A stretch of DNA of 64,000 nt. Source: Stappia sediminis. GTDB taxonomy: Bacteria > Pseudomonadota > Alphaproteobacteria > Rhizobiales > Stappiaceae. Under the pieces are notes generated by a model that did no database searches, was not told the origin of the DNA, and saw nothing but the letters and a program-made list of their open reading frames with translations. Location: assembly GCF_009826895.1 (NCBI RefSeq), contig NZ_WUMV01000001.1, positions 434,001 to 498,000 on the forward strand, read 5' to 3'. The translations under genes and the position numbers were made by a program. Every line of letters starts with the position of its first letter. Positions within the stretch are counted from its first letter, which is position 1. Of this stretch, positions 7,231 through 27,351 are shown one piece after another.

Positions 7231-7754
7231 GCCGGCCGCGCACTCCCTCACCTCTCCCTTGAGGGAGAGGTCGGCGCGTCAGCGCCGGGCGAGGGTGCAA
7301 CGACCCCGCCCCATCGCCCACGCCGGCGATGCCACACAATTTGACACCCTCACCCTGTCCCTCTCCCTGAGGGAGAGGGGACGCAGGCTGCGCTTTCTTG
7401 CCATAGTCCCCAGAGCTTCAACACGGGAAGCGGCTCGATAATGTTGAGCGCCGGCCGCGCACTCCCTCACCTCTCCCTTGAGGGAGAGGTCGGCGCGTCA
7501 GCGCCGGGCGAGGGTGCAACGACCCCGCCCCATCGCCCACGCCGGCGATGCCACACAATTTGACACCCTCACCCTGTCCCTCTCCCTGAGGGAGAGGGGA
7601 CGCAGGCTGCGCTTTCTTGCCATAGTCCCCAGAGCTTCAACACGGGAAGCGGCTCGATAATGTTGAGCGCCGGCCGCGCACTCCCTCACCTCTCCCTTGA
7701 GGGAGAGGTCGGCGTGTCAGCGCCGGGTGAGGGTGCAACGGCCCCCCCATCGCC
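7231..7754. repeat. Tandem 219-bp intergenic repeat, two full copies and one partial
   Basis: Units start at 7231, 7450 and 7669, a spacing of exactly 219 bp. The first two units look identical by eye; the third stops after about 86 bp and carries substitutions. Each full unit contains two short palindromes built on CTCTCCCT/AGGGAGAG, separated by a stretch that also forms CGGCG-type pairings. The duplicated frames reported across this block (for example 60- and 63-residue frames in each unit) are by-products of the repeat, not genes. CCCTCACC/CTCTCCC palindromes of this kind are common intergenic elements in proteobacteria; the tandem triplication is unusual. Confidence 0.9.
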
Positions 7755-16281: not shown

Positions 16282-16411
16282 GGGCTGTCTCCTTGCCGCA
16301 ACGTCATGTAATTGAGTGTCAGGATACGATAGCCAAAGCACGCCGTCGTGTAGACGGTATCGATGCGGGTCAGGTATACGGGTCCATGGGGATTTGGGGC
16401 AAGAGGCGGCG

Positions 16412-17557
16412 ATGACCATCCACGCGGCGCGACCCGCGCCGACCTTGAGTACTGCGGTGGACGGCGAGAGGATGACGGTTGCCATTGGCGGCGGCTGGAC
16501 GATCCATGCCAGCCACGAGATGGAAGGTCTCGTCACCGGCCTGAAATCGGGTACCCCCGTTTTCATCACAATCGACCTGTCGGGCGTAACCCATCTCGAC
16601 ACGGCTGGCGCCTGGTTGATCCACCGCTTGCAGGGCGATTTCGAGTTCAAGGGCTCGCGGGTTGAACTCACGGGACTCAGCGACAAGTTCAGGTCGCTGG
16701 TGGGTGAAATCGAAAGCCACCACCCGCCAGCGTGGAAACCGCGCGTTCGCCGGCGTTCGATCGTGGGCCTGCTGGAAGCGACCGGCAGGCAGATGGCCGA
16801 AATCGGCAATGATATCGTCGCCGTCTGCCACATCGTCGGGTCGCTGGCGGTCGTTCTGTCCGGAATCCTGATCAATCCCCGGCGGCTAAGGGGTATTTCG
16901 GTCGCCGTTCAGTTCGACCGTTCATGCATTGGCGCCGTTCCCATCGTCGCGCTGATGAGCTTCCTGATCGGCGGCATCATTTCCCAGCAGGGCGGCTTCT
17001 ACCTGCGAACGTTCGGCGCGGATCTTTACGTGGTCGACCTTGCCGGCGTGCTGGTCCTGCGTGAAATCGGGGTTCTTCTGACGGCGATCATGGTCGCGGG
17101 CCGTTCCGGTTCGGCATTCACCGCGGAACTCGGTTCCATGAAGATGCGCGAGGAGATGGATGCGCTGCATGTCATCGGCCTCAGGGTAACGGAAGTTCTC
17201 ATTTTGCCGCGGCTGCTTGCGCTGATGATCGCCCTGCCGATCCTTGCGTTCATAGCCGACCTTGCGGCCCTTTTCGGCTCGGGCCTCGTGACATGGGCAT
17301 ATCTTGAAATCCCGCCGCAGATCTTCATGCAGCGGCTGAATGAAGCCGTCACCCTGCAAACGCTTTGGGTCGGCCTTCTCAAGGCGCCCTTCATGGCGAT
17401 GATCATTGCGCTTATCGCCTGCGTGGAAGGGCTGAAGGTTTCCGGATCCTCCGAATCGCTCGGCCTTCACACCACGCTTTCGGTGGTGAAGGCGATCTTC
17501 ATGGTGATCGTGGTCGATGGTATGTTCGCCATCTTCTTCGCATCTATCGGGGTTTGA
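16412..17557 (+). CDS. MlaE-family ABC transporter permease with N-terminal STAS domain
   Basis: Inner-membrane permease of an MCE/Mla-type lipid transporter, 381 residues. An N-terminal STAS-like domain (about 20-110; 'ITIDLSGVTHLDTAGAWLI') is followed by the MlaE core (about 150-381), opening with 'FDRSCIGAVPIVALMSFLIGG' and containing the conserved 'LREIGVLLTAIMVAGRSGSAFTAELG' split in two by the membrane. The frame is open to 16316; the ATG at 16412 follows AAGAGGCGG and is preferred. This is the first gene of a tightly spaced four-gene operon with ATPase, MCE protein and lipoprotein. Confidence 0.9.
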   Translation: MTIHAARPAPTLSTAVDGERMTVAIGGGWTIHASHEMEGLVTGLKSGTPVFITIDLSGVTHLDTAGAWLIHRLQGDFEFKGSRVELTGLSDKFRSLVGEIESHHPPAWKPRVRRRSIVGLLEATGRQMAEIGNDIVAVCHIVGSLAVVLSGILINPRRLRGISVAVQFDRSCIGAVPIVALMSFLIGGIISQQGGFYLRTFGADLYVVDLAGVLVLREIGVLLTAIMVAGRSGSAFTAELGSMKMREEMDALHVIGLRVTEVLILPRLLALMIALPILAFIADLAALFGSGLVTWAYLEIPPQIFMQRLNEAVTLQTLWVGLLKAPFMAMIIALIACVEGLKVSGSSESLGLHTTLSVVKAIFMVIVVDGMFAIFFASIGV

Positions 17558-17561
17558 GCTG

Positions 17562-18404
17562 ATGCGGGAAGGGGAAGGGGAAGGGGAAGGGGAAGGGGAA
17601 GGGGAAGGGCAGGTGTCGGGCGTCGGGGAGGAACGCAAGATCGCGGTTTTGAAAGCGCGCGGCGTCACGGTCGGCTTCGGTGAGACCCTCATCCTGGAAA
17701 ACCTCGACCTTGACGTCTATCGCAGCGAGATCCTGGGTTTCGTCGGCGGTTCCGGCACCGGCAAATCCGTTCTCATGCGCACGATCCTCGGACTTGTCGA
17801 AAAGCGTGCCGGAAAGATCGAGGTGTTCGGCGACGATCTGGACACCGCGACGGCGGACGAACGTGCCGCGATCGAGCGCCGCTGGGGCGTTCTTTTCCAG
17901 CAAGGAGCGCTGTTTTCCTCTCTCAACGTGCGCCAGAACATCCAGGTACCAATGCGCGAACACATGAACATGTCTCAGCGCTTGATGGATGAGATGGCGC
18001 TTTTGAAGCTGGAGATGGTCGGGTTGCCCCGCGATTCGGCCGAAAAGGCGCCTTCGGAGCTTTCCGGCGGCATGATCAAGCGCGCAAGCCTTGCCCGGGC
18101 GCTGGCGCTCGATCCGGATCTCGTCTTCCTGGACGAGCCGACATCGGGGCTCGATCCCATCGGCGCGGCCGCCTTCGACGATCTCATAGAACGGCTGCGG
18201 GACGCCTTGGGGCTCACGGTCTATATGGTCACCCATGACCTCGACAGCCTGCATTCCATTTGCGATCGCATCGCTGTATTAGGGGAGCGTCGGGTACTCG
18301 TCACGGGAACATTTGACGAAATGATGCAGGTGGACCAACCCTGGGTGAAATCGTACTTCAGGGGTGAGCGGGCCTTGCGTCGGGTGGAACAGGACGAGGT
18401 TTGA
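17562..18404 (+). CDS. ABC transporter ATP-binding protein of the MCE/Mla lipid system
   Basis: MlaF-type ATPase, 280 residues from the ATG at 17562. Walker A is GGSGTGKS, the signature is LSGGMIKRASLARAL, and Walker B is DLVFLDEPTSGLDP, followed by the switch histidine in 'MVTHDLDSL'. Residues 3-16 are seven Glu-Gly dipeptides encoded by a (GGGGAA)n run, after which the conserved domain begins. A GTG at 17613, right after this purine-rich run, is a plausible alternative start because the repeat itself resembles a string of Shine-Dalgarno sites. The ATG is 4 nt after the permease stop. Confidence 0.92.
   Translation: MREGEGEGEGEGEGEGQVSGVGEERKIAVLKARGVTVGFGETLILENLDLDVYRSEILGFVGGSGTGKSVLMRTILGLVEKRAGKIEVFGDDLDTATADERAAIERRWGVLFQQGALFSSLNVRQNIQVPMREHMNMSQRLMDEMALLKLEMVGLPRDSAEKAPSELSGGMIKRASLARALALDPDLVFLDEPTSGLDPIGAAAFDDLIERLRDALGLTVYMVTHDLDSLHSICDRIAVLGERRVLVTGTFDEMMQVDQPWVKSYFRGERALRRVEQDEV
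17567..17610 (+). repeat. (GGGGAA)7 hexanucleotide run at the start of the ATPase gene
   Basis: Seven GGGGAA-type units encode Glu-Gly repeats directly after the ATG. Each unit also contains GGAAGG/AAGGGG, which is complementary to the 3' end of 16S rRNA. The run could therefore act as a tunable ribosome-binding array for the in-frame GTG at 17613. Confidence 0.85.
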
Positions 18405-20300
18405 ATGGAGACCCGCGCCAATTACATCGCCATCGGCGCCTTTGTCTTTGCGATCATCATCGCAGCCTTCGTGTTCATCTATTGGCTGGGTGTCACGTCC
18501 AACGGCACCAAGAGCGTAAACATCAAGGTTATTTTCCCCGGCGCGGTGACCGGCCTGTCCACGGGCGGGCAGGTGCTCTACAACGGCATCAAGATCGGCG
18601 ATGTCGGCGCTTTGGAGTTCAATCCGCGCGATCCCAAGGTCGTGCTGGCGACGCTGCGCGTCAACCCCAACGCCCCGCTGCGCAAGGACACCAAGGCAAC
18701 GCTCGGATTTCAGGGTCTTACCGGGGTAGCCTATGTCGAGCTTTCGGGCGGCACGCCGGGCTCGCCATCGCTGTTCGAGACGGCGGACGACAAGGAACCT
18801 GTCCTGTATGCGGAACGTTCGGCTTTCGAGGATATCGTCGAAGGCGCACGCAACATTCTTGGCAAGGCGGACACCACTCTCGACACGATCGAGGAAGTGA
18901 TCGCCGGGAACCGGGACGAGATCGACCAGACGATCAAGAACATAAACCAGTTCTCCGAAGCGCTGGCCAAGAACTCCGACGGTGTCGACCAGTTCATGTC
19001 ATCGGTCGCCGACACCGGTGAGGCGTTGACGAAACTGTCGAACCGTCTTGAAGGCCTCGTGGCCAAGGCGGAAACGATCGTGGATGCCGTGCCGCCCGAA
19101 AAGATCACCTCGATCGTCAATGATACGGCCGAAATCGCCACGAAAATTTCCGAGGCTTCGAACGGGCTTTCGACGTTGATCGCCGACTCAAAGACGGCGG
19201 CGGAAGAATTGCAGAGCTTTACCGCAGGGCTCAACGAGAGCCTGAAGCAGGTCGATGCGGTGCTGGCCGAGGTCAAACCGGGAGATGTCCAGAAGATCGT
19301 TCAGGGCGTTTCACAATTCGCAGAAGTGCTCGACAACCGCAGCGCTGATATCGACAAGGTCGTCGCGTCCACGGCGGCGACGATGGAAAACGTCGAGAAG
19401 GTTTCAAAAACGCTTGGCGACCGGCAGGTCCAGATTGCTGAATTCATCGACAGCGCGGCCGCTGCAGGAGAACGCCTGAATTCGACGCTCGAGGAGGCGG
19501 GAAAGATCATCGCTACCGTCAATCCGCAAAGCGTGCAGGATATCGTCGATGGGGCGGCGAGCTTTTCCAAGGTGCTGAACGAGCGTCGCGGGGATATCGA
19601 CAGGGTGATCGCATCCGCCGCTTCGTCCATGGACAATATCGAGAAGGTTTCCAAAACGCTCGGGGACCGTGACGCGCAGATCGGCCAGATCGTAGACAAT
19701 GCCGCGCTCGTGGAAGAAAAGCTCGTCCAGTCGCTCGACGAGGCGAATCGCGTCTTGTCTGCCGTGAACTCGGACGAAGTCGCGCGGATCATTGCCTCGC
19801 TCGATACGCTGACATCCGATGTGGCGGGAAAAACCCAGACAATTTCAACGGCGATCGACGATGCTGGAAAGGCGGCAGCGAACATCCGCTCCTTCACCGG
19901 CGACATTGAAGGCCGCAAGCCCGATATCGACCAGATCATCACCAACGTGAACGAGCTTTCGAAGAACCTGAATGCCGCAAGCGTGAGAATTCAAGGCGTT
20001 ATCGACAAGGTTGACGGCATGGTGGCCGGCGATGGAGAGGGCTTCGTTTCCGAAGCGACGAAGGCTGCGGCCGCGATTCGCAAGGCGGCGGATATCCTGC
20101 AGGAAAACATCGGGCCGATCGCGAACGGCCTGAACAAGTTCGCCACGCGCGGATCGGCGGATTTCTCGGCCGCAATGGGCCAACTCAACAGGACCTTGGT
20201 GGAAATTCAGCGTGCAGTGGCTAATATCGACCGCGATCCGAGTCGCGTGATCTTCGGCGGATCGGATACACCGACATTCGGCGGGGCGAGGCGACGGTGA
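18405..20300 (+). CDS. MCE (MlaD-family) protein with long helical tail and 82-residue repeats
   Basis: Periplasmic, membrane-anchored substrate-binding subunit of the lipid transporter, 631 residues. A single N-terminal helix (about 8-28) precedes one MCE domain (about 38-118; 'FPGAVTGLSTGGQVLYNGIKIGDV'). The remaining 500 residues are predicted helical, with two tandem 82-residue units (DNA 19275-19520 and 19521-19766), both containing 'EKVSKTLGDR', plus degenerate flanking copies. MlaD itself is about 180 residues; the length here resembles tunnel-forming MCE proteins such as PqiB/YebT or mycobacterial Mce, but with one MCE domain. The ATG directly abuts the ATPase stop. Confidence 0.9.
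   Translation: METRANYIAIGAFVFAIIIAAFVFIYWLGVTSNGTKSVNIKVIFPGAVTGLSTGGQVLYNGIKIGDVGALEFNPRDPKVVLATLRVNPNAPLRKDTKATLGFQGLTGVAYVELSGGTPGSPSLFETADDKEPVLYAERSAFEDIVEGARNILGKADTTLDTIEEVIAGNRDEIDQTIKNINQFSEALAKNSDGVDQFMSSVADTGEALTKLSNRLEGLVAKAETIVDAVPPEKITSIVNDTAEIATKISEASNGLSTLIADSKTAAEELQSFTAGLNESLKQVDAVLAEVKPGDVQKIVQGVSQFAEVLDNRSADIDKVVASTAATMENVEKVSKTLGDRQVQIAEFIDSAAAAGERLNSTLEEAGKIIATVNPQSVQDIVDGAASFSKVLNERRGDIDRVIASAASSMDNIEKVSKTLGDRDAQIGQIVDNAALVEEKLVQSLDEANRVLSAVNSDEVARIIASLDTLTSDVAGKTQTISTAIDDAGKAAANIRSFTGDIEGRKPDIDQIITNVNELSKNLNAASVRIQGVIDKVDGMVAGDGEGFVSEATKAAAAIRKAADILQENIGPIANGLNKFATRGSADFSAAMGQLNRTLVEIQRAVANIDRDPSRVIFGGSDTPTFGGARRR
19275..19766 (+). repeat. Two tandem 246-bp coding repeats in the MCE gene
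   Basis: Each unit encodes 82 residues. They begin KPGDVQKIVQ and NPQSVQDIVD, share 'EKVSKTLGDR' at the same offset (41-50), and end IIATV and VLSAV. The third, diverged start ('NSDEVARIIAS') follows at 19767 in phase. Confidence 0.9.
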
Positions 20301-20953
20301 CAGCAAGGGCGTTTCGGGGCGAACGGGGCCGCATTCCGGCAGGCGAGGGGGATGGCAGGGGCGCGTGCCGCCGCGCCTTCCGTGTCGCTTTGGCGCTCGC
20401 GTTCGCCGCAGGGCTCGGCGCTTGCGCCAGCACCACGCCTTCCGCGCTATACGGCTTGAACGCGCCGCGCAGCGTGCAGGGCGCGGCAGCCCGCAGCAGC
20501 CGCCAGATACTTGTGCCGCAGCCTTCCGCGCTGCAAGCGCTTGATACGGTCAATATCGCCGTCGTCGATACCGGTCCGATCTACACCTATTTTCCGCGCG
20601 CGGCATGGTCGGACACGCTTCCGAAAGTCGTGCAGGCCAAGATCATCGAAACGCTGGAAAACACCGGGCGCCTTCGCGGTGTCGGGCGCCCGGGCGAGGG
20701 GCTACTGATCGATTACCAGCTCCAGACGGACCTGAGAGCCTTCGAGCTTCGCATCGACGGTCAGGACCGTGCCTATGTGGAAATCGCGGCACGGCTTCTC
20801 AACGACCGCACTGGAAGGGCGCAAGCCAGCCGCGTTTTCTCGGCTCAGGTTCCCTCGCGCGGCGTCAACGTGGATCAGGCGGTTGAAGCCATGAATGCCG
20901 CCGTGGACCAGGTGTTGAGCGAGATGGCGGCCTGGGTGCTGCGCCAGGTCTGA
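20297..20953 (+). CDS. ABC-type transport auxiliary lipoprotein (PqiC/DUF330-like)
   Basis: 218-residue lipoprotein completing the MCE lipid transporter, as PqiC-like proteins do. The lipobox is LGAC (Cys43) after a hydrophobic stretch. 'LYGLNAPRSV', 'ILVPQPSALQALDT', 'WSDTLPKVVQAKIIETLENTG' and 'LQTDLRAFEL' follow the ABC_trans_aux domain pattern. It starts with GTG overlapping the MCE stop (GTGA). The n-region is long (about 28 residues), so a later start is possible, but no in-frame ATG precedes the signal. It likely bridges the periplasm to an outer-membrane site. Confidence 0.83.
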   Translation: MTARAFRGERGRIPAGEGDGRGACRRAFRVALALAFAAGLGACASTTPSALYGLNAPRSVQGAAARSSRQILVPQPSALQALDTVNIAVVDTGPIYTYFPRAAWSDTLPKVVQAKIIETLENTGRLRGVGRPGEGLLIDYQLQTDLRAFELRIDGQDRAYVEIAARLLNDRTGRAQASRVFSAQVPSRGVNVDQAVEAMNAAVDQVLSEMAAWVLRQV

Positions 20954-21145: not shown

Positions 21146-24100
21146 TCAGTCGAGCCTGCCGCTCGCATGCGCGAGCATCGTGTAGACCTTGCCGGTATCC
21201 GACGTCAGATAGGTCTGGCTCAGCATGCTGTCGCGGTCGTTGCGCGAAACCTGGGCAAGAAGCTGCTCGAAGTCGCGGATATAGCGGTCTACCGCGCCGC
21301 GGAATTCCGCGTCTCTTGCATACTTCTGGCGGATTTCGTCAAACGTCTGCTGCCCTTGAAGGGTGTAGAGCCGACGGGTGAACACGTGCCGTTCGCCGCG
21401 CTTGTAACGATCCCAGAGATCAAGGAAGGTCTCATGGTCGATCGCGCGGGCAATGTCCATCGACAGTGAATTGAGCGATTCAACCATGTGCAGCGGAGAG
21501 CGGCCGTTAGAGCCCGCGTCGACCTTCGGTGCCTCTTCCGCCGCCTCGTCGCGCGAGGCACGGCGAAGAAGGTCGCTCACCCAGCCGCGGCCCTGCGGTT
21601 GCAGCTCTTCCTGGCGGGGCTTTTCCAGGTCGCTCAGCGATACCTTGCGCGGCTCGGCACGTTCCTCACGAGGAGCGGCCGGAGCCTGGCTGGTCTGCGG
21701 CTGAGAGGAGGGCTGGCGCTCGCGCGCAGCCGGCTCGGCAGACGCATTGGGCGCGGAGCGGTTGGTGGCGGATGCCTGCTGCAACTGCGCCTTTTCGCCG
21801 GAACGCGACACGTCCAGCGAATTGGACTGCTTGGCAACGATATCCGACAGTTCGCCGAGTGCCCGCACCTGCTCGCTGACGATCTTGCGAAGCGCCGCGG
21901 TTGATTCCTCCGCCTCTTCGGGAAGATCCAGGATACCCTGCTTCAGCTCCGCGCGCGTAGCTTCGAGTTCGCGATGGACGTCCTTGGCGACATCGCGCAT
22001 GCGCGTCGTCGCTTCGGTGAAGCGTTCGGAAGCTTCTCCCAGCATCCGCGACATCTCGGTGACGATCTCGTCTTCCGCCGCCTTGATGGATTCGCGGGCC
22101 TTCTGCCCTTCGAGCCCGGCGGAACGGCGCATGGACTCGAACTGCTCGGTAATCGCCTGGGTCGCCCTTTCGGCGGCGGCGGCCAGCATCGTCGTCACTT
22201 CGCGGGTCTTGTCGTCCGCCGAATTCAGGGTTGCGGAAAGCTGGTCGGTGAAGCTGCGCATCAGGATGTCGACAGCTTCGGTTTTCGCGAGCAACGTATC
22301 GGCCACATCTTCGATCGCCGTACGGCGGTCGGCGATGCGCGAGGAAACGTTCGCATCCGTTTCCTCCAGCTTCCGAGCGGCGTCCGAAAGCTGGCGCCCC
22401 TGCTCCTCGAAGCGGTGGGCGAGGGCGGTGATATCCGCAAGCACCGTGTTGGAAACATCGCGCAGCAGGCCGACTTGCTGGTCGATCGTGCCGGTGGATG
22501 TATTCGTTTCCTGGACGGCGCGGTCGACGGCGGTCCGGAACTCGCCGGCGCTGCGCGACAGGCCGCTTTCGACCGTCGAAAGGTTGAGGCCGGCTTGCTC
22601 CAGAACCTCGCTGAGCGTCCCGTTTGCCTGGTTCAGCCGGTCGAGGATGCCGCTGATGTCTTCCTCCAGCCGCGCCTTTGTCGACTGCAGGACGTCGGCA
22701 GCCGAGTTGCTTCGCTCATCCAGCGAGTTGATGATGCTGTCGCCGGCTTCCACCAGGGCCCTGGTCGTTTCCAGCCCCTTGCGGGCGAAGTCGTCGGCGG
22801 TCTCGCGGCCCTTGACGGTGATCGCGTCGAGGATGGCCGAATGGACCTCTTCGACACGCACCGTGAGACTGCGAGCGCGCTCCTCGATCGTTTCGACGAG
22901 GACATTGCCGTCCGTCCCGATGAGCCTGGACATTTCCTCGGTCCGCTCGCCGAGCGACTTGTTGAGTTCATCCGCCTGGGAAAGCAGGTTGGCCGCCACC
23001 GCATGACCGCGTTGCGACAGCATGTCGGCTGCCTCGCGCACGGCTTCGGAAATGCGCCCGCGCACATCGTCCGTCTCGCCGGAGATGAGATTTCGGATTT
23101 CTTCCGTGGCACGGCCAAGGATCAGGCGGGCCTGTTCGCTCTCCGCCGACAGCGCGCCGGACAGTTCCGCGACCGTCCGCGACAGGTCGGTGCGGGCCTT
23201 TTCCGTCTCGCCGCCAAGCGAATCCGCCATTTCCGCGAGCGTTCCCACATACAGCGCACGTGCCTTCTCGCTTTCCGCGGCGAGGCTGCGGGCAGCCTCG
23301 TTGACGGCGGTGAAGACAAGATCGCGCACCTGCTGGCTTTCGCCGGAAAGGGCACTCGTCGCCTGCGTGATTGCATGGGTGATCGATTCCGCGGCCTTGG
23401 TGCTTTCGCCCTGCAGGACGCCTCGCGCCTCGCCAATGGAACCGAGGATGATCTCGCGCAGCCGGCCGCTTTCGCCGCCGAGTTTGTCGGTGGCTTCGTT
23501 CACGGACGTATCGATGATCATGCGCAGGCGGTCGCCTTCGCCGCCGAGGCGGCTGGTCGCATCGTTGATCGAAGCGTCCACAAGTTCGCGCAGCCTCTCG
23601 CCTTCGCCGGAGAGCGAGCCCGAAACCCGGTCGATCGTCTGCGAGGCGATGTCGATGACACCGGTGACGGCAACGCGTGCCTTCTCCGTTTCGGAGGACA
23701 GTGTGCCGGATATCGCGGCAAGGCGCTCGGACAGGATCTGCTCGAGCTTGCCGGCCCGGCTGTCGAGCGTTTCCGCCACCTCGAACACCTTCGCGCCGAG
23801 GGAGACGTTGATTTCCGCCACGCGATCGGCAAGCGAGTCCGTGAGTTCCTGGCTTTGCCGGGCAAGCACGGTGCCCGCGGCTTCGAGCCTTTCGTCGAGT
23901 GCGCTCGCCATTTCGTTCTGGCCCGCCACGAACGCGGAGGCGATTTCGCGGGTGCGGGCGATCAGCGTTTCGCTGATCTGGCGTCCGCGCGCATCGAGTG
24001 CCTGATCGATCCGCTCCGCGCCCGAAGACATGGTCTCGGCAAGATGCGTCGTCTTGTCCGTCAGGGCCGTCGCCGCATTCTCGACCTTCTCGCCGATCGA

Positions 24101-27082
24101 CTTTTCGAAGGTCGCCAGGTGCTGCTCGATGGACGTACCGATCTCGTCGGAGCGTCGCGTCAGGCTGCGACCGATCGATTCCGCGCGGTTTCCAAGGCTA
24201 GCGCCGACCTCGTCGACCTTGGCCGATAGATGCTCGGTGATCGCGTCGGTGCGGGTCTCAAGCACATTGGTGAGTGCCTGCGTCTTGCTTTCAAGCGCTT
24301 CGGCAAGAGCGGATGTGCGGCCTTCCAGGGCTTCCGAAAGGGCGTTGGTGCGTCCTTCGATCGCTTCGTTCAGGGTCGCGGTGCGCTCATGCATCGCCGC
24401 CTCGAAGGTGGCCGTGCGCTGGTTGAGCGTCATGTCCAGCGTCTCGATGCGCCCGTCGAGCGTCTCGCCAAGCGCGTTCGTACGCTCGCCAAGCGTGGAA
24501 TCGATTGCCTTTGCGCGGCTTTCAAGTGTCTCGTTGAGCGTCGACAGACGAGCACCGAACGTCTCGTCGATCGCCTGAACACGGCCTTCAAGCGTGCCAT
24601 CGAGCCTCGACAAGCGTGCATCGAAAGTTTCGTCGATCGCCCTTGAGCGGCTCTCCAGGGTTTCGTCGAGCGCCGAAAGACGGGCGCCGAATGTCTCGTC
24701 GATCGCCTGGGCGCGCCCTTCGAGCGTCCCGTCGAGTGTGGAAAGGCGTGCGTCGAAGGTTTCGTCGATCGTTCTTATGCGGCCGTCAAGCGTATCGTCG
24801 AGCCGCGTGAGGCGCATGTCGAAGGAATCGTCGATATGCGCGATACGGCTGTCGAGAGAAGTGGTCAGCGCGTTCGTGCGCTCGCCGAACTTCGTGTCGA
24901 TGTAATGGATGCGGCTGTCGAGCGTCTCTGCGATTGCGCTGTTGCGTTCGTCGAAGGCGGCGATCAGACGGTCGCCACGCTCGCCGACGATGCTTTCAAG
25001 CTGTTCGAGCCTCGTGCCGAGGCTCGCCTGCAGGACGTCGCTGCGATGTTCGAGAGTTCCGGTGAAACGCTCGCCCGCGGCGATGATTTCCTGGGAGGCC
25101 TTCGAACCGCGCGAACCGATGAGTTCCGCAAGATCGGTGCCGGTCTGGGCCAGTTTCTGTCCGATCGCGACCGTCTGCTCCGAAAGCGTGCCGGATATCT
25201 GGCCCGATGCGCTTTCCAGCGTGTCACGGAAGAGGTTGGTCTGGCCTTCGATAAGTTCGGCGATCTCCTTGCCGCGCAGGTTGAGGCGGTTGTCGAGCGT
25301 CTCGCCATTGATGGAAATCGCTTCGTGGATGCGCTCGCCGACCTGGTCGAGGCGGTTGGCAAGCTCCGTGCCGCGTACCGAGATAGTGTCGGTGAGGTTC
25401 GCCGCCGTTTCGTCGAGCTTCGTGGCGATTTCGCCGCCGCGCAGCGAAAGGTCGACAACGATGGACTCGCCGGTGCCGCGCAGGATTTCGGCCACTTCGC
25501 TCGTGCGGCTCGACAGGGTTTCGATAATCTCCGTACCCTTGTGCGCGATCGCGTGGGCGACATCCTCTCCGCGCCGGGAGATGCTGTCGACGACCTGCTC
25601 CCTCGTGGTGGAAAGGGATTGGTCGAGCGCGGTGACGCGGGTGTCGATCGTCGACATCAGGTTTTCGGTGCGCCCGGTGATCGTGTCGATCAGGCGTCCG
25701 CTCGTCAGCGACAGGTTGGAATTGATCTCCTCGCTGCGTTCGGTGATGGACTGCTCGACAGCCGCGCCCGTGGCGGCGATCTGGTCGGTCAGTTCCTTGC
25801 CGCGCACCGACAGGGCCTCGGTGAGGGAGGTCGATGTCGTCGACAGCGTATCGTTGATTTCCTGTCCGCGCTGCGAAAGCGTCTCGATGAAGCCGCTTGC
25901 GGTATTGGCGAAGCGGGAATTGATGTCGTCGCCGCGTGTCGCCAGCGTTTCCGTCAGTTCCGTGCTCGTACGGTTCATCGTGTCGACGAGTTCGGAGCCT
26001 GTGGAGGTCAGCCTTTCGACATAGTCGGAGCTGCGCGATGTCAGGCTGTCGATGAGCTCAGCGCCTGCCGCGTTGAAGGTCTCGGTGATGTTGGTCACGC
26101 GGGAATCGACGGTCGATGTCAGTTCTCCGACCCGATCCTCGATCGCATCGGTCAGCCGTGCGGTCGCCGCATCGACGGAATTGTCGAATTTCTGGGTCGT
26201 GGTGTCGAGCTGCTCGGCAAGGGCCTCATGCGCGCCCGCCAGCGCATCGCGCACGCGGTCGGCATTCGTGATGACCGCTTCGCGCTGCGTGACGAGTTCC
26301 TCGATCAGCGAGCGGATCTTGAGTTCGTTGTCATTGTAGGAACGCTCGAGCGAGGAAACCTCGTTGTGAACGAGAACCTCAAGCTCGCTGGCGCGTGCGA
26401 TCGCCCGCTCGATGCCGTCGCCCATGGCCGTGACCTCGCGGCGGATCGCCTGGCCGACACTGAGGATGGATTCCTTGGCGATGTCTTCCGGCTCGGCCAA
26501 GCGCAGTGCGACTTCCGTCATTCCGCGGGCGACGTTGCGCATTTCCTGGGCGCGCCAGATCATCATCGCCATGACCCAGAAGAAGACGATGGGAACACCG
26601 ACCGCGACCAGCGAAAGGACCAGCCCCGGCGCATTTGCGAGGTCGGCAAGGCTCGTGATGGTGGCGGCTTCCGCCTTGAAGGCGTTGAGGGCCAGCATGG
26701 TGCCGATCCCGCCCCAGATGGCGCTGAGCAGGAGGGCGATCCAGAATGGCGTCGAAGAAGGACGGCGCTGGAGCGAATAGATCAGGTTGCCGATGGAGCG
26801 GCGGTCGTCGTTGGCAGCGGAAGTCGGCCGCCCGCCACCACGCCCGCGGCGGCGGCGCTGCGCCTGCTGCGGGGCTTGTTCTTCGGCCGTTTCGCCAACG
26901 GCCGGCTTTTCCGCCTGTTTTTCCGCGTTTTCCGGTGCGCGGGCTTCGGGCGCGGTTTCGCTCGCGCTCGCTTCCGCCTCCTGCGATGTGTCGTCCGGTC
27001 CGCCGAAATCGATTTTCAGCGCTTCTTCCACAGCCGAAAGGGCCGCTTCCGCCGGATCTTTCATCTTCGGGGGATTTGCCAT
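21146..27082 (-). CDS. Giant GPR-like coiled-coil membrane protein (apolipoprotein-type hendecad repeats)
   Basis: 1978-residue protein. Residues 1-90 are acidic then Arg/Gly-rich. Two membrane helices follow (about 112-133 and 153-176), then a helical rod and a Gln/Pro-rich linker (about 1760-1860). The conserved globular C-terminus contains 'FTRRLYTLQGQQTFDEI'. From about residue 270 to 1490 the chain can be cut without a gap into roughly 110 units of exactly 11 residues. These first follow a pattern like LEGRTSALAEA and, from about residue 1160, a 22-residue double unit such as INDATSRLGGE. This is the architecture of Growth Pole Ring protein (about 2100 residues) in Agrobacterium, needed for polar growth, and of related apolipoprotein A/E-domain proteins in Hyphomicrobiales. 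A structural pole-organising role is inferred. Confidence 0.82.
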   Translation of the reverse strand: MANPPKMKDPAEAALSAVEEALKIDFGGPDDTSQEAEASASETAPEARAPENAEKQAEKPAVGETAEEQAPQQAQRRRRGRGGGRPTSAANDDRRSIGNLIYSLQRRPSSTPFWIALLLSAIWGGIGTMLALNAFKAEAATITSLADLANAPGLVLSLVAVGVPIVFFWVMAMMIWRAQEMRNVARGMTEVALRLAEPEDIAKESILSVGQAIRREVTAMGDGIERAIARASELEVLVHNEVSSLERSYNDNELKIRSLIEELVTQREAVITNADRVRDALAGAHEALAEQLDTTTQKFDNSVDAATARLTDAIEDRVGELTSTVDSRVTNITETFNAAGAELIDSLTSRSSDYVERLTSTGSELVDTMNRTSTELTETLATRGDDINSRFANTASGFIETLSQRGQEINDTLSTTSTSLTEALSVRGKELTDQIAATGAAVEQSITERSEEINSNLSLTSGRLIDTITGRTENLMSTIDTRVTALDQSLSTTREQVVDSISRRGEDVAHAIAHKGTEIIETLSSRTSEVAEILRGTGESIVVDLSLRGGEIATKLDETAANLTDTISVRGTELANRLDQVGERIHEAISINGETLDNRLNLRGKEIAELIEGQTNLFRDTLESASGQISGTLSEQTVAIGQKLAQTGTDLAELIGSRGSKASQEIIAAGERFTGTLEHRSDVLQASLGTRLEQLESIVGERGDRLIAAFDERNSAIAETLDSRIHYIDTKFGERTNALTTSLDSRIAHIDDSFDMRLTRLDDTLDGRIRTIDETFDARLSTLDGTLEGRAQAIDETFGARLSALDETLESRSRAIDETFDARLSRLDGTLEGRVQAIDETFGARLSTLNETLESRAKAIDSTLGERTNALGETLDGRIETLDMTLNQRTATFEAAMHERTATLNEAIEGRTNALSEALEGRTSALAEALESKTQALTNVLETRTDAITEHLSAKVDEVGASLGNRAESIGRSLTRRSDEIGTSIEQHLATFEKSIGEKVENAATALTDKTTHLAETMSSGAERIDQALDARGRQISETLIARTREIASAFVAGQNEMASALDERLEAAGTVLARQSQELTDSLADRVAEINVSLGAKVFEVAETLDSRAGKLEQILSERLAAISGTLSSETEKARVAVTGVIDIASQTIDRVSGSLSGEGERLRELVDASINDATSRLGGEGDRLRMIIDTSVNEATDKLGGESGRLREIILGSIGEARGVLQGESTKAAESITHAITQATSALSGESQQVRDLVFTAVNEAARSLAAESEKARALYVGTLAEMADSLGGETEKARTDLSRTVAELSGALSAESEQARLILGRATEEIRNLISGETDDVRGRISEAVREAADMLSQRGHAVAANLLSQADELNKSLGERTEEMSRLIGTDGNVLVETIEERARSLTVRVEEVHSAILDAITVKGRETADDFARKGLETTRALVEAGDSIINSLDERSNSAADVLQSTKARLEEDISGILDRLNQANGTLSEVLEQAGLNLSTVESGLSRSAGEFRTAVDRAVQETNTSTGTIDQQVGLLRDVSNTVLADITALAHRFEEQGRQLSDAARKLEETDANVSSRIADRRTAIEDVADTLLAKTEAVDILMRSFTDQLSATLNSADDKTREVTTMLAAAAERATQAITEQFESMRRSAGLEGQKARESIKAAEDEIVTEMSRMLGEASERFTEATTRMRDVAKDVHRELEATRAELKQGILDLPEEAEESTAALRKIVSEQVRALGELSDIVAKQSNSLDVSRSGEKAQLQQASATNRSAPNASAEPAARERQPSSQPQTSQAPAAPREERAEPRKVSLSDLEKPRQEELQPQGRGWVSDLLRRASRDEAAEEAPKVDAGSNGRSPLHMVESLNSLSMDIARAIDHETFLDLWDRYKRGERHVFTRRLYTLQGQQTFDEIRQKYARDAEFRGAVDRYIRDFEQLLAQVSRNDRDSMLSQTYLTSDTGKVYTMLAHASGRLD

Positions 27083-27351
27083 CTGTCGTTGCCTCGCGTC
27101 CGTACTCTCAACTCACCGGCCGCCGCAGCTTATATCGAGTCGCGCTGCGTGCCAGGGTGCGTCAAGGAAGTGTGCTCCAGAAGCTTACAGCCCTCAGGGG
27201 CCCCTTGAGAACACTATCCGGGTGGATCGCATTTGCGCATCTGTTGCCGCTTGCGCGCAAATACGATCATCCAGCCTTGCCGCATCACCATAGCTAATGA
27301 CACAATAACACCACCCTAACAAGGATTTGCGGCTGTCCCCGCAATGAGCAA

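Follow-up and report, generated by a model that had tools for sequence, protein, structure and literature searches.

The window analysed here, a stretch of 64,000 nucleotides of Stappia sediminis DNA (NCBI RefSeq assembly GCF_009826895.1, contig NZ_WUMV01000001.1, positions 434,001 to 498,000 of the forward strand), carries on its minus strand an ATG-started open reading frame (ORF; 21146..27082) for a protein of 1978 aa, identified by its sequence as the GPR/RgsE orthologue of a Hyphomicrobiales bacterium. About 111 eleven-residue units (hendecads) occupy residues 268-1486 of this protein, and our analyses mainly concern this array and the way its length changes between relatives. The following parts of the protein, all encoded on the minus strand, were distinguished: (i) a Pro/Ala/Glu-rich N-terminal head, presumably disordered (residues 1-90; 26813..27082), with a start motif like DPAEAALSAVEEAL that is common to relatives; (ii) a conserved N-domain (residues 85-270; 26273..26830), defined by alignment and an AlphaFold2 model (mean predicted local distance difference test, pLDDT, 85.9; predicted template modelling score, pTM, 0.43) and composed of a two-helix membrane hairpin (helices at about 111-134 and 152-180, limits estimated) followed by a near-continuous helix; (iii) the first block of the array (residues 268-1151; 23630..26281), with 80.4 hendecads in a single phase; (iv) the second block (residues 1152-1486; 22625..23629), with 30.5 hendecads arranged as 22-residue GGE/SGE double units; (v) a coil of drifting phase (residues 1487-1720; 21923..22624), mixing heptads and hendecads at a period of about 3.56-3.62; (vi) a Pro-rich linker (residues 1721-1850; 21533..21922), beginning where prolines resume; and (vii) a conserved helical C-terminal domain (residues 1851-1978; 21149..21532), defined by alignments and an AlphaFold2 model (pLDDT 78.6, pTM 0.66). 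Parts (iii)-(v) were delimited with a hidden Markov model (HMM), cyclic for the array, and by phase. Both the head and the linker show small indels between relatives. Two N-terminal transmembrane helices are likewise stated for GPR and RgsE (PMC8262873; PMC7327166). Profiles of the N- and C-domains gave nothing significant against solved structures (best E 0.16 and 0.07, respectively), and a Foldseek comparison of the two models with the PDB gave no match at E<=0.001. Long open frames also run antisense to the gene (plus strand; 21974-24229, 751 aa, and 24836-27208, 790 aa) and recur in some homologues (e.g., 1707 aa in L216); they are probably a by-product of the codon usage of the repeats.

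Within residues 271-1250, sequence identity is 0.21 at a lag of 11 residues and 0.29 at a lag of 22; at lags up to 69 not divisible by 11 it is only 0.04-0.12. The hydrophobicity autocorrelation of residues 201-1750 reaches 0.44 and 0.46 at lags 11 and 22, and the hydrophobic amplitude at the 3/11 frequency, 193.7, exceeds that of all 5000 shuffles (at most 43.7); the 11/3 hydrophobic period of a hendecad coiled coil thus extends across many units. Position 7 of the grid is occupied by I/L/V/M/F in 103 of the 111 units and position 11 in 89 of 110. Strongly hydrophobic and aromatic residues (I/L/V/M/F/Y/W) make up 25% of the array and form a narrow stripe, about two positions wide in each unit, the central core position being mostly Leu/Ile/Val/Phe. 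There is no proline in residues 199-1720 and no Pro, Cys or Trp in the 1223-residue array, whose net charge is -86. These results agree with the original prediction, made from the sequence of the window alone, of about 110 units between residues ~270 and ~1490, with units of the LEGRTSALAEA type and a 22-residue GGE/SGE double unit. Its figure of about 180 nm for a fully helical array is arithmetically correct (1223 x 0.15 nm), and the ring of roughly 200 nm that it quoted for Agrobacterium GPR has the diameter given in the source (PMC8262873).

The array is continuous in period but contains one register change. The two blocks lie 4 states apart in a cyclic 11-state HMM, for which the window protein and 63 homologues served as training set (64 of the 81 available proteins; a filter missed the other 17), and a model-free estimate of the local phase of the 3/11 component shifts, around residues 1128-1161, from about -122 to about -88 degrees. 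This shift of about 33 degrees, placed near residue 1151, is the only one within the array. It is hard to spot on a fixed 11-residue grid, since it affects only the other core positions and leaves position 7 hydrophobic; a fixed-grid description of 110 units with no break was rejected in favour of the two blocks given by the HMM and the local phase. The original statement that the chain divides into units without a single insertion or deletion is therefore upheld for the period and has to be given up for the register, and period detection recovers the 11-residue unit in two in-phase blocks rather than one. Beyond residue ~1490 the phase drifts. Since HMM jumps of 4 or 8 modulo 11 correspond to one or two heptads, we read those found in this C-terminal coil, and in a genus of exceptional homologues described below, as heptads among hendecads and not as indels.

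The assignment to the GPR/RgsE family rests on the N- and C-domains, both of which match homologues that include those of an Agrobacterium tumefaciens metagenome-assembled genome (MAG; L141) and of Sinorhizobium meliloti 4H41 (L158; 2094 aa from the first ATG, with 2089 aa reported for RgsE, PMC7327166). The N-domain of the window protein matches 157 of 158 homologous ORFs (the window included); the exception, L045, is a short ORF without this region. The C-domain was found in all 158, partly by construction, because the homologues were fetched with it. The predicted GPR-like identity, including the match of both terminal regions to GPR homologues, was thus borne out. In the order, the C-domain is present in 291 of the 297 genomes sampled and the N-domain in the remaining six (6/6), so that each of the 297 has at least one conserved end. 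Three proteins of families f21 and f34 (L217, L218 and L219) keep the N-domain and a hendecad-like array and gave no C-domain match. Three loci (L025, L089 and L150) had no ORF under the end-motif filter. The short ORF L045 and three proteins with a misplaced anchor (L034, L029 and L039) were excluded from the pair and array statistics and included in the modulo-11 table described below, and the genome-size correlation excludes only L045 of these; L030, which has almost no array, was left out of the array statistics.

A long helical body between the ends, with an array of 563-2130 residues, was found in 153 proteins; the median period is 3.665. In 145 of them at least half of the 132-aa segments have a period of 3.64-3.695, a range reached by 7% of the segments in 200 shuffles of the window array, and the sequences of both S. 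meliloti and the A. tumefaciens MAG show the hendecad periodicity. The eight exceptions all belong to one genus (f22/g62; L013 and L052-L058) and have most of the array at a period of ~3.62, with super-repeats of 29, 36 and 94 residues in L013 and L054. Of the 153 arrays, 131 have their highest identity at a lag that is a multiple of 11. In the class, the N-domain was detected in 29 of the 192 genomes sampled, namely the window, two others of its order and 26 from outside it. Sixteen of these 26 proteins were examined; all have the C-domain (16/16), their lengths are 691-1979 residues, and their coils have periods mostly of 3.54-3.64, i.e., heptad or mixed. The plan of the family is thus a pair of conserved ends joined by a coil of variable type and length, and the long, pure form of the hendecad array appears to have arisen within this order.

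From the unbroken array the original prediction had concluded that there was selection against any length change. This is contradicted by the homologues: besides the range of lengths given above, the anchor-to-anchor distance, which leaves the array itself unaligned, differs in 31 of 44 close pairs, in 18 of them by a multiple of 11. The close pairs are those of 75 disjoint nearest pairs whose array identity is at least 0.80 (60,538 array residues); gaps at the extreme N-terminal end were left out of the counts. Alignment of these pairs gave 52 gaps in the array, none of 10 aa or less and 34 with lengths that are multiples of 11. In all, 50 of the 52 equal 0, 3 or 7 modulo 11 (11a, 11a+14 or 11a+7), which corresponds to whole hendecads plus none, two or one heptads. 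The disordered head and the linker of the same proteins (14,661 residues) contain 138 gaps, of which 134 are of 10 aa or less and one is a multiple of 11. Four alternative gap-cost settings gave 49-60 array gaps for the close pairs, with 0-6 small ones and 47-53 that preserve the hydrophobic seam. Unit counts across GPR homologues therefore vary, in steps that keep the seam. Among 158 proteins, which are kin and not independent, the anchor distances deviate from uniformity modulo 11 with a chi-squared per degree of freedom of 9.6, compared with 1.0-1.1 at moduli 7, 9 and 13, 2.1-3.0 at 8, 10, 12 and 14, and 5.6 at 22. Shinella pollutisoli, with an anchor distance of 1240, and Rhizobium lemnae, with 1808, exemplify short and long arrays. 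The 52 length changes are distributed over the array quarters, from first to last, as 2, 30, 12 and 8. For 31 inserts (those in the first member of a pair), DNA identity to the adjacent segment has a median of 77% (range 52-97%), taken as the best of several placements and with no shuffled control. In the window gene, a repeat scan found a DNA tandem repeat with a period of 66 bp (22 aa) at 24501..24835 (minus strand; ~69-70% matches), which is a trace of array growth and lies near two 22-aa length differences (residues 770 and 835) from the same-genus protein L003. It is out-of-phase change that the arrays avoid.

We consider it probable that GPR forms a membrane-anchored, nearly straight hendecad coiled-coil rod and acts as a spacer or scaffold at the growing pole. 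The sequence comparisons above establish the orthology, the period, the continuity of phase, the length changes that preserve the seam and the conservation of the ends, while the polar ring, the membrane anchoring and the essential C terminus are known from publications; that the array is a coiled-coil oligomer rather than a lipid-bound helix, that it is an in-register homomer and that it serves as a spacer are what we infer. Two membrane helices would anchor the protein in the inner membrane, and a nearly straight, in-register, homo-oligomeric coil of the ~111 units, ~180 nm long if fully helical, would extend from there into the cytoplasm, continue as the mixed heptad/hendecad coil and end in the flexible Pro-rich linker and the conserved helical C-terminal domain. 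As a rigid spacer or scaffold, the rod would fix the reach of that domain, and of whatever binds it, from the anchor at the growing pole. Hendecads have 3.667 residues per turn, close to the 3.63 of a free helix, so a hendecad coil is almost straight (PMC9858780). If all chains need one continuous hydrophobic seam, mainly indels of whole hendecads (or heptads) would be tolerated, and the length would change when DNA units, most often of 33, 66 or 132 bp, are duplicated in tandem or lost. GPR is reported at the growing pole and is required for rod shape (PMC8262873; PMC7327166; PMC9938171), with polar localisation described in A. tumefaciens, S. meliloti and B. abortus, respectively.

Published deletions can be read against this proposed rod. 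In Agrobacterium, complementation is strongly blocked when 221 or 332 residues are removed from the C terminus, and the internal deletions take out either 20 residues (a figure of 21 is given as well) or larger regions, of 263 and 346 residues (PMC8262873); none of these internal sizes is a multiple of 11. Of all the deletions, the 20-aa A-IV-4cc in A. tumefaciens performed worst in merodiploids, yet it was partly functional alone (PMC8262873). A loss of 20 residues, at 98.2 degrees each, turns the seam by 164 degrees, so that mixed oligomers should fail more than pure ones, and the dominant-negative, partly self-sufficient behaviour of A-IV-4cc fits a register break in an in-register homo-oligomer.

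Several observations weigh against the proposed rod. Another 20-aa deletion, A-IV-1cc, complemented well (PMC8262873), so loss of register is not always severe; this milder deletion agrees less well with a register break in a homo-oligomer. GPR foci are only 50 nm wide, from which Zupan et al. (PMC8262873) argued that the protein must fold back on itself; the same source puts an extended 1700-residue helix at 600 nm, and 0.15 nm per residue gives ~255 nm. The array is rich in glycine (89 Gly of 1223 residues), which is unusual for a rigid rod, and the eight f22/g62 proteins show that pure hendecads are not universal. In more distant alignments, small gaps do occur: 14 of the 72 array gaps in the 13 pairs at identity 0.60-0.80 (41 being multiples of 11), and 120 of 426 in all 75 pairs, with identity down to 24% (193 being multiples of 11); some of these may be alignment splits. 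The folded N- and C-domains of the close pairs have 0 and 2 small gaps, so the absence of small gaps alone is ordinary, and it is its combination with frequent large changes that is telling.

The same length differences could have arisen as a mere by-product of recombination between DNA repeats, with no selection for phase. The 66-bp tandem visible in the window gene, the resemblance of inserts to their neighbours (median 77%) and a best-identity lag that is a multiple of 22 in 117 of the 153 arrays all speak for such recombination, which accounts for the large in-phase steps; it does not account for the missing small indels in close pairs. Scaled by substitutions (134 small flank gaps; substitution fractions of 0.119 and 0.088 in the flanks and 0.069 in the array), the array should carry about 400 small gaps, and none was seen (0-6 with the other gap costs). 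Steps of 18, 29, 36 and 40 residues (11a+7b) likewise preserve the seam, and we regard recombination without phase selection as an unlikely explanation. It is also doubtful that the array is an apolipoprotein-like amphipathic helix that binds lipid, lying on the membrane or sequestering its lipid at the growth pole. GPR was termed an apolipoprotein from its match to PF01442 and BLAST matches to human apolipoprotein A-IV, and a lipid role is favoured by Zupan et al. (PMC8262873). Our searches reproduce such matches: the whole window protein scores 266 bits to PF01442, and a phmmer search of the PDB retrieves human apolipoprotein A-IV at E 1.1e-5 (without a shuffled control). The convergence of gpr on an MCE lipid-transport operon in many families also speaks for a lipid role. 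The PF01442 match was controlled with 440-aa array pieces, real, reversed, shuffled within the 11 columns or fully shuffled, at a cut-off of 90 bits. Residues 711-1150 of the window protein scored 120.3 bits, their reversal 127.4 and four column shuffles 113.8, 105.9, 112.7 and 108.4, while three full shuffles of this piece gave no Pfam match. The A. tumefaciens MAG piece behaved in the same way (59.4 bits for the real piece, 66.4 when reversed, 60.5 after a column shuffle and no match after a full shuffle), as did that of S. meliloti (94.2, 87.4, 91.3 and none, respectively). For the pieces tested, position-wise composition at period 11 is thus sufficient for the match, which is no evidence of ancestry. 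Homology to apolipoproteins was rejected on this basis, with reversed and column-shuffled pieces scoring like the real ones and none of the five full shuffles matching, and the one heptad-type relative tested from the GPR family has no PF01442 match. The low hydrophobic content of the array, confined to its narrow stripe, also speaks against a lipid-bound helix. Apolipoproteins too can be acidic, so the net charge alone does not discriminate. The control concerns ancestry and does not prove that the array binds no lipid.

It is highly improbable that GPR is the tail of an ion-driven motor of the TolQ/MotA/ZorA type, an idea suggested by NCBIfam ZorA models that match the array (best 1.4e-11, below their cut-offs), by the interaction of RgsE with TolQ in two-hybrid assays (PMC7327166) and by the long cytoplasmic tail that ZorA likewise has (PMC11890865). 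The ZorA matches are confined to the repeat part, and a column-shuffled array scores 33.3 bits to ZorA_1 where the real piece scores 24.8; weak matches of the real piece to ZorA_3 and ZorA2 were not listed for the shuffle. With hhalign, the N-domain has a probability of only 0.14 and 0.15% against the two MotA_ExbB-family proteins of the genome, which by our reading of their neighbours are one of the TolQ type and one of the MotA type, and MotA_ExbB is absent from the best 25 of 59 Pfam families for the N-domain. A relation to ZorA, TolQ or MotA was rejected on these hhalign values and on the appearance of the ZorA match in the shuffle. A coiled-coil rod anchored by the membrane hairpin remains the reading that we prefer.

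The array might in addition be an evolvable molecular ruler, whose length determines the reach or the diameter of the ring at the growth pole and is tuned between species by tandem duplication. Such a ruler would be adjusted by one or two hendecads at a time (1.65 or 3.3 nm), with a first array quarter that is nearly frozen in length (2 of the 52 changes). Genome size was used as a proxy for ring size, with kinship ignored throughout: its correlation with array length was not significant over 79 genomes (rho 0.18) or within families (rho 0.22), and it was 0.71 over 21 family means, a first set of 36 having given 0.62. A ruler function seems to us a long shot.

Immediately adjacent to gpr, in convergent orientation, lies an MCE-type lipid transport operon (16316..20953, plus strand), whose genes were assigned with Pfam as MlaE (16316-17557), an ABC ATPase (17517-18404), MlaD/MCE (18405-20300) and an ABC_trans_aux lipoprotein (20297-20953). 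All four genes are found downstream of gpr, convergent with it, at 12 of 20 loci from 19 families (at one of them ~5.7 kb away), and MlaE, MCE and the lipoprotein are each present at 49 of 80 named Rhizobiaceae gpr loci. The gpr flank of the A. tumefaciens MAG contains no genes of the MCE operon and that of S. meliloti only an ATPase-like match. Being convergent, gpr and the operon are not co-transcribed, and the arrangement may reflect function or merely conserved gene order. Near the start of the ABC ATPase ORF, a 6-bp microsatellite (GGGAAG; 17566-17609, 7.3 copies, 100% matches) encodes an EGEGEG run; either the true start of the ATPase is late or this is a possible slippage site. A 219-bp tandem repeat (2.4 copies, 98% matches) is located at 7231-7754.

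The GPR protein and its polar role are already known, as are long hendecad rods near growing poles (Scy/FilP). What appears to be new is that the apolipoprotein match fails its controls, that the length evolves with the phase preserved and that the deletion data can be read accordingly. In J Struct Biol 2023, Martinez-Goikoetxea and Lupas reportedly described hendecad families across all proteomes and stressed hendecad amplification; none of the literature matches listed combines hendecads with GPR, and that 2023 survey may already contain it. Both 'hendecad' and 'repeat' are absent from the main text of PMC8262873. GPR has a central role in the one-sided growth of a large order of bacteria, and its long helical body had been read as an apolipoprotein. 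The controls replace that view by a specific and testable picture, a phase-locked hendecad rod with a length that evolves by whole repeats, which offers a new reading of the published 20-residue deletions. The natural variants of the array, from 563 to 2130 residues, give a means of examining whether a polar structure takes its size from a protein rod.

The closest known counterparts are GPR of A. tumefaciens (Atu1348, 2115 aa) and RgsE of S. meliloti (SMc00190, 2089 aa), with which the window protein shares the hairpin, the helical body and the C-domain; the comparison was made through the A. tumefaciens MAG and S. meliloti 4H41 and not strains C58 and Rm2011. The array of the window protein is purer, with all of its 132-aa segments hendecad-like compared with 89% in the A. 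tumefaciens MAG and 81% in S. meliloti, and its anchor distance is 1367, against 1456 and 1353, respectively. Like GPR, ZorA of Zorya has membrane helices and, behind them, a long helical tail in the cytoplasm; the membrane part of GPR has no profile relation to the MotA_ExbB-family proteins of its own genome. The PF01442 apolipoproteins (A1/A4/E) share with the window array an amphipathic helix of period 11/22 and a match above the cut-off of the same Pfam model. The array differs from them in having no proline, and the window protein far exceeds the 250-400 residues given for lipid-transport apolipoproteins (PMC8262873). Scy and FilP of Streptomyces, of a DivIVA-like superfamily, are long coiled-coil rods with extended hendecads; their N-terminal motif is DivIVA-like and their dimeric cores are rich in Ala (PMC9858780), whereas the window protein has a membrane hairpin and mostly Leu/Ile/Val/Phe at the central core position. 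DivIVA is absent from the 14 Pfam families listed for the whole window protein, no direct comparison with Scy or FilP having been made. The resemblance to Scy is offered as an analogy only and not as membership: Scy has more than 1000 residues, almost all in hendecads, lengths in the FilP/Scy group range from less than 200 to more than 1000, and FilP is graded towards the cell poles (PMC9858780).

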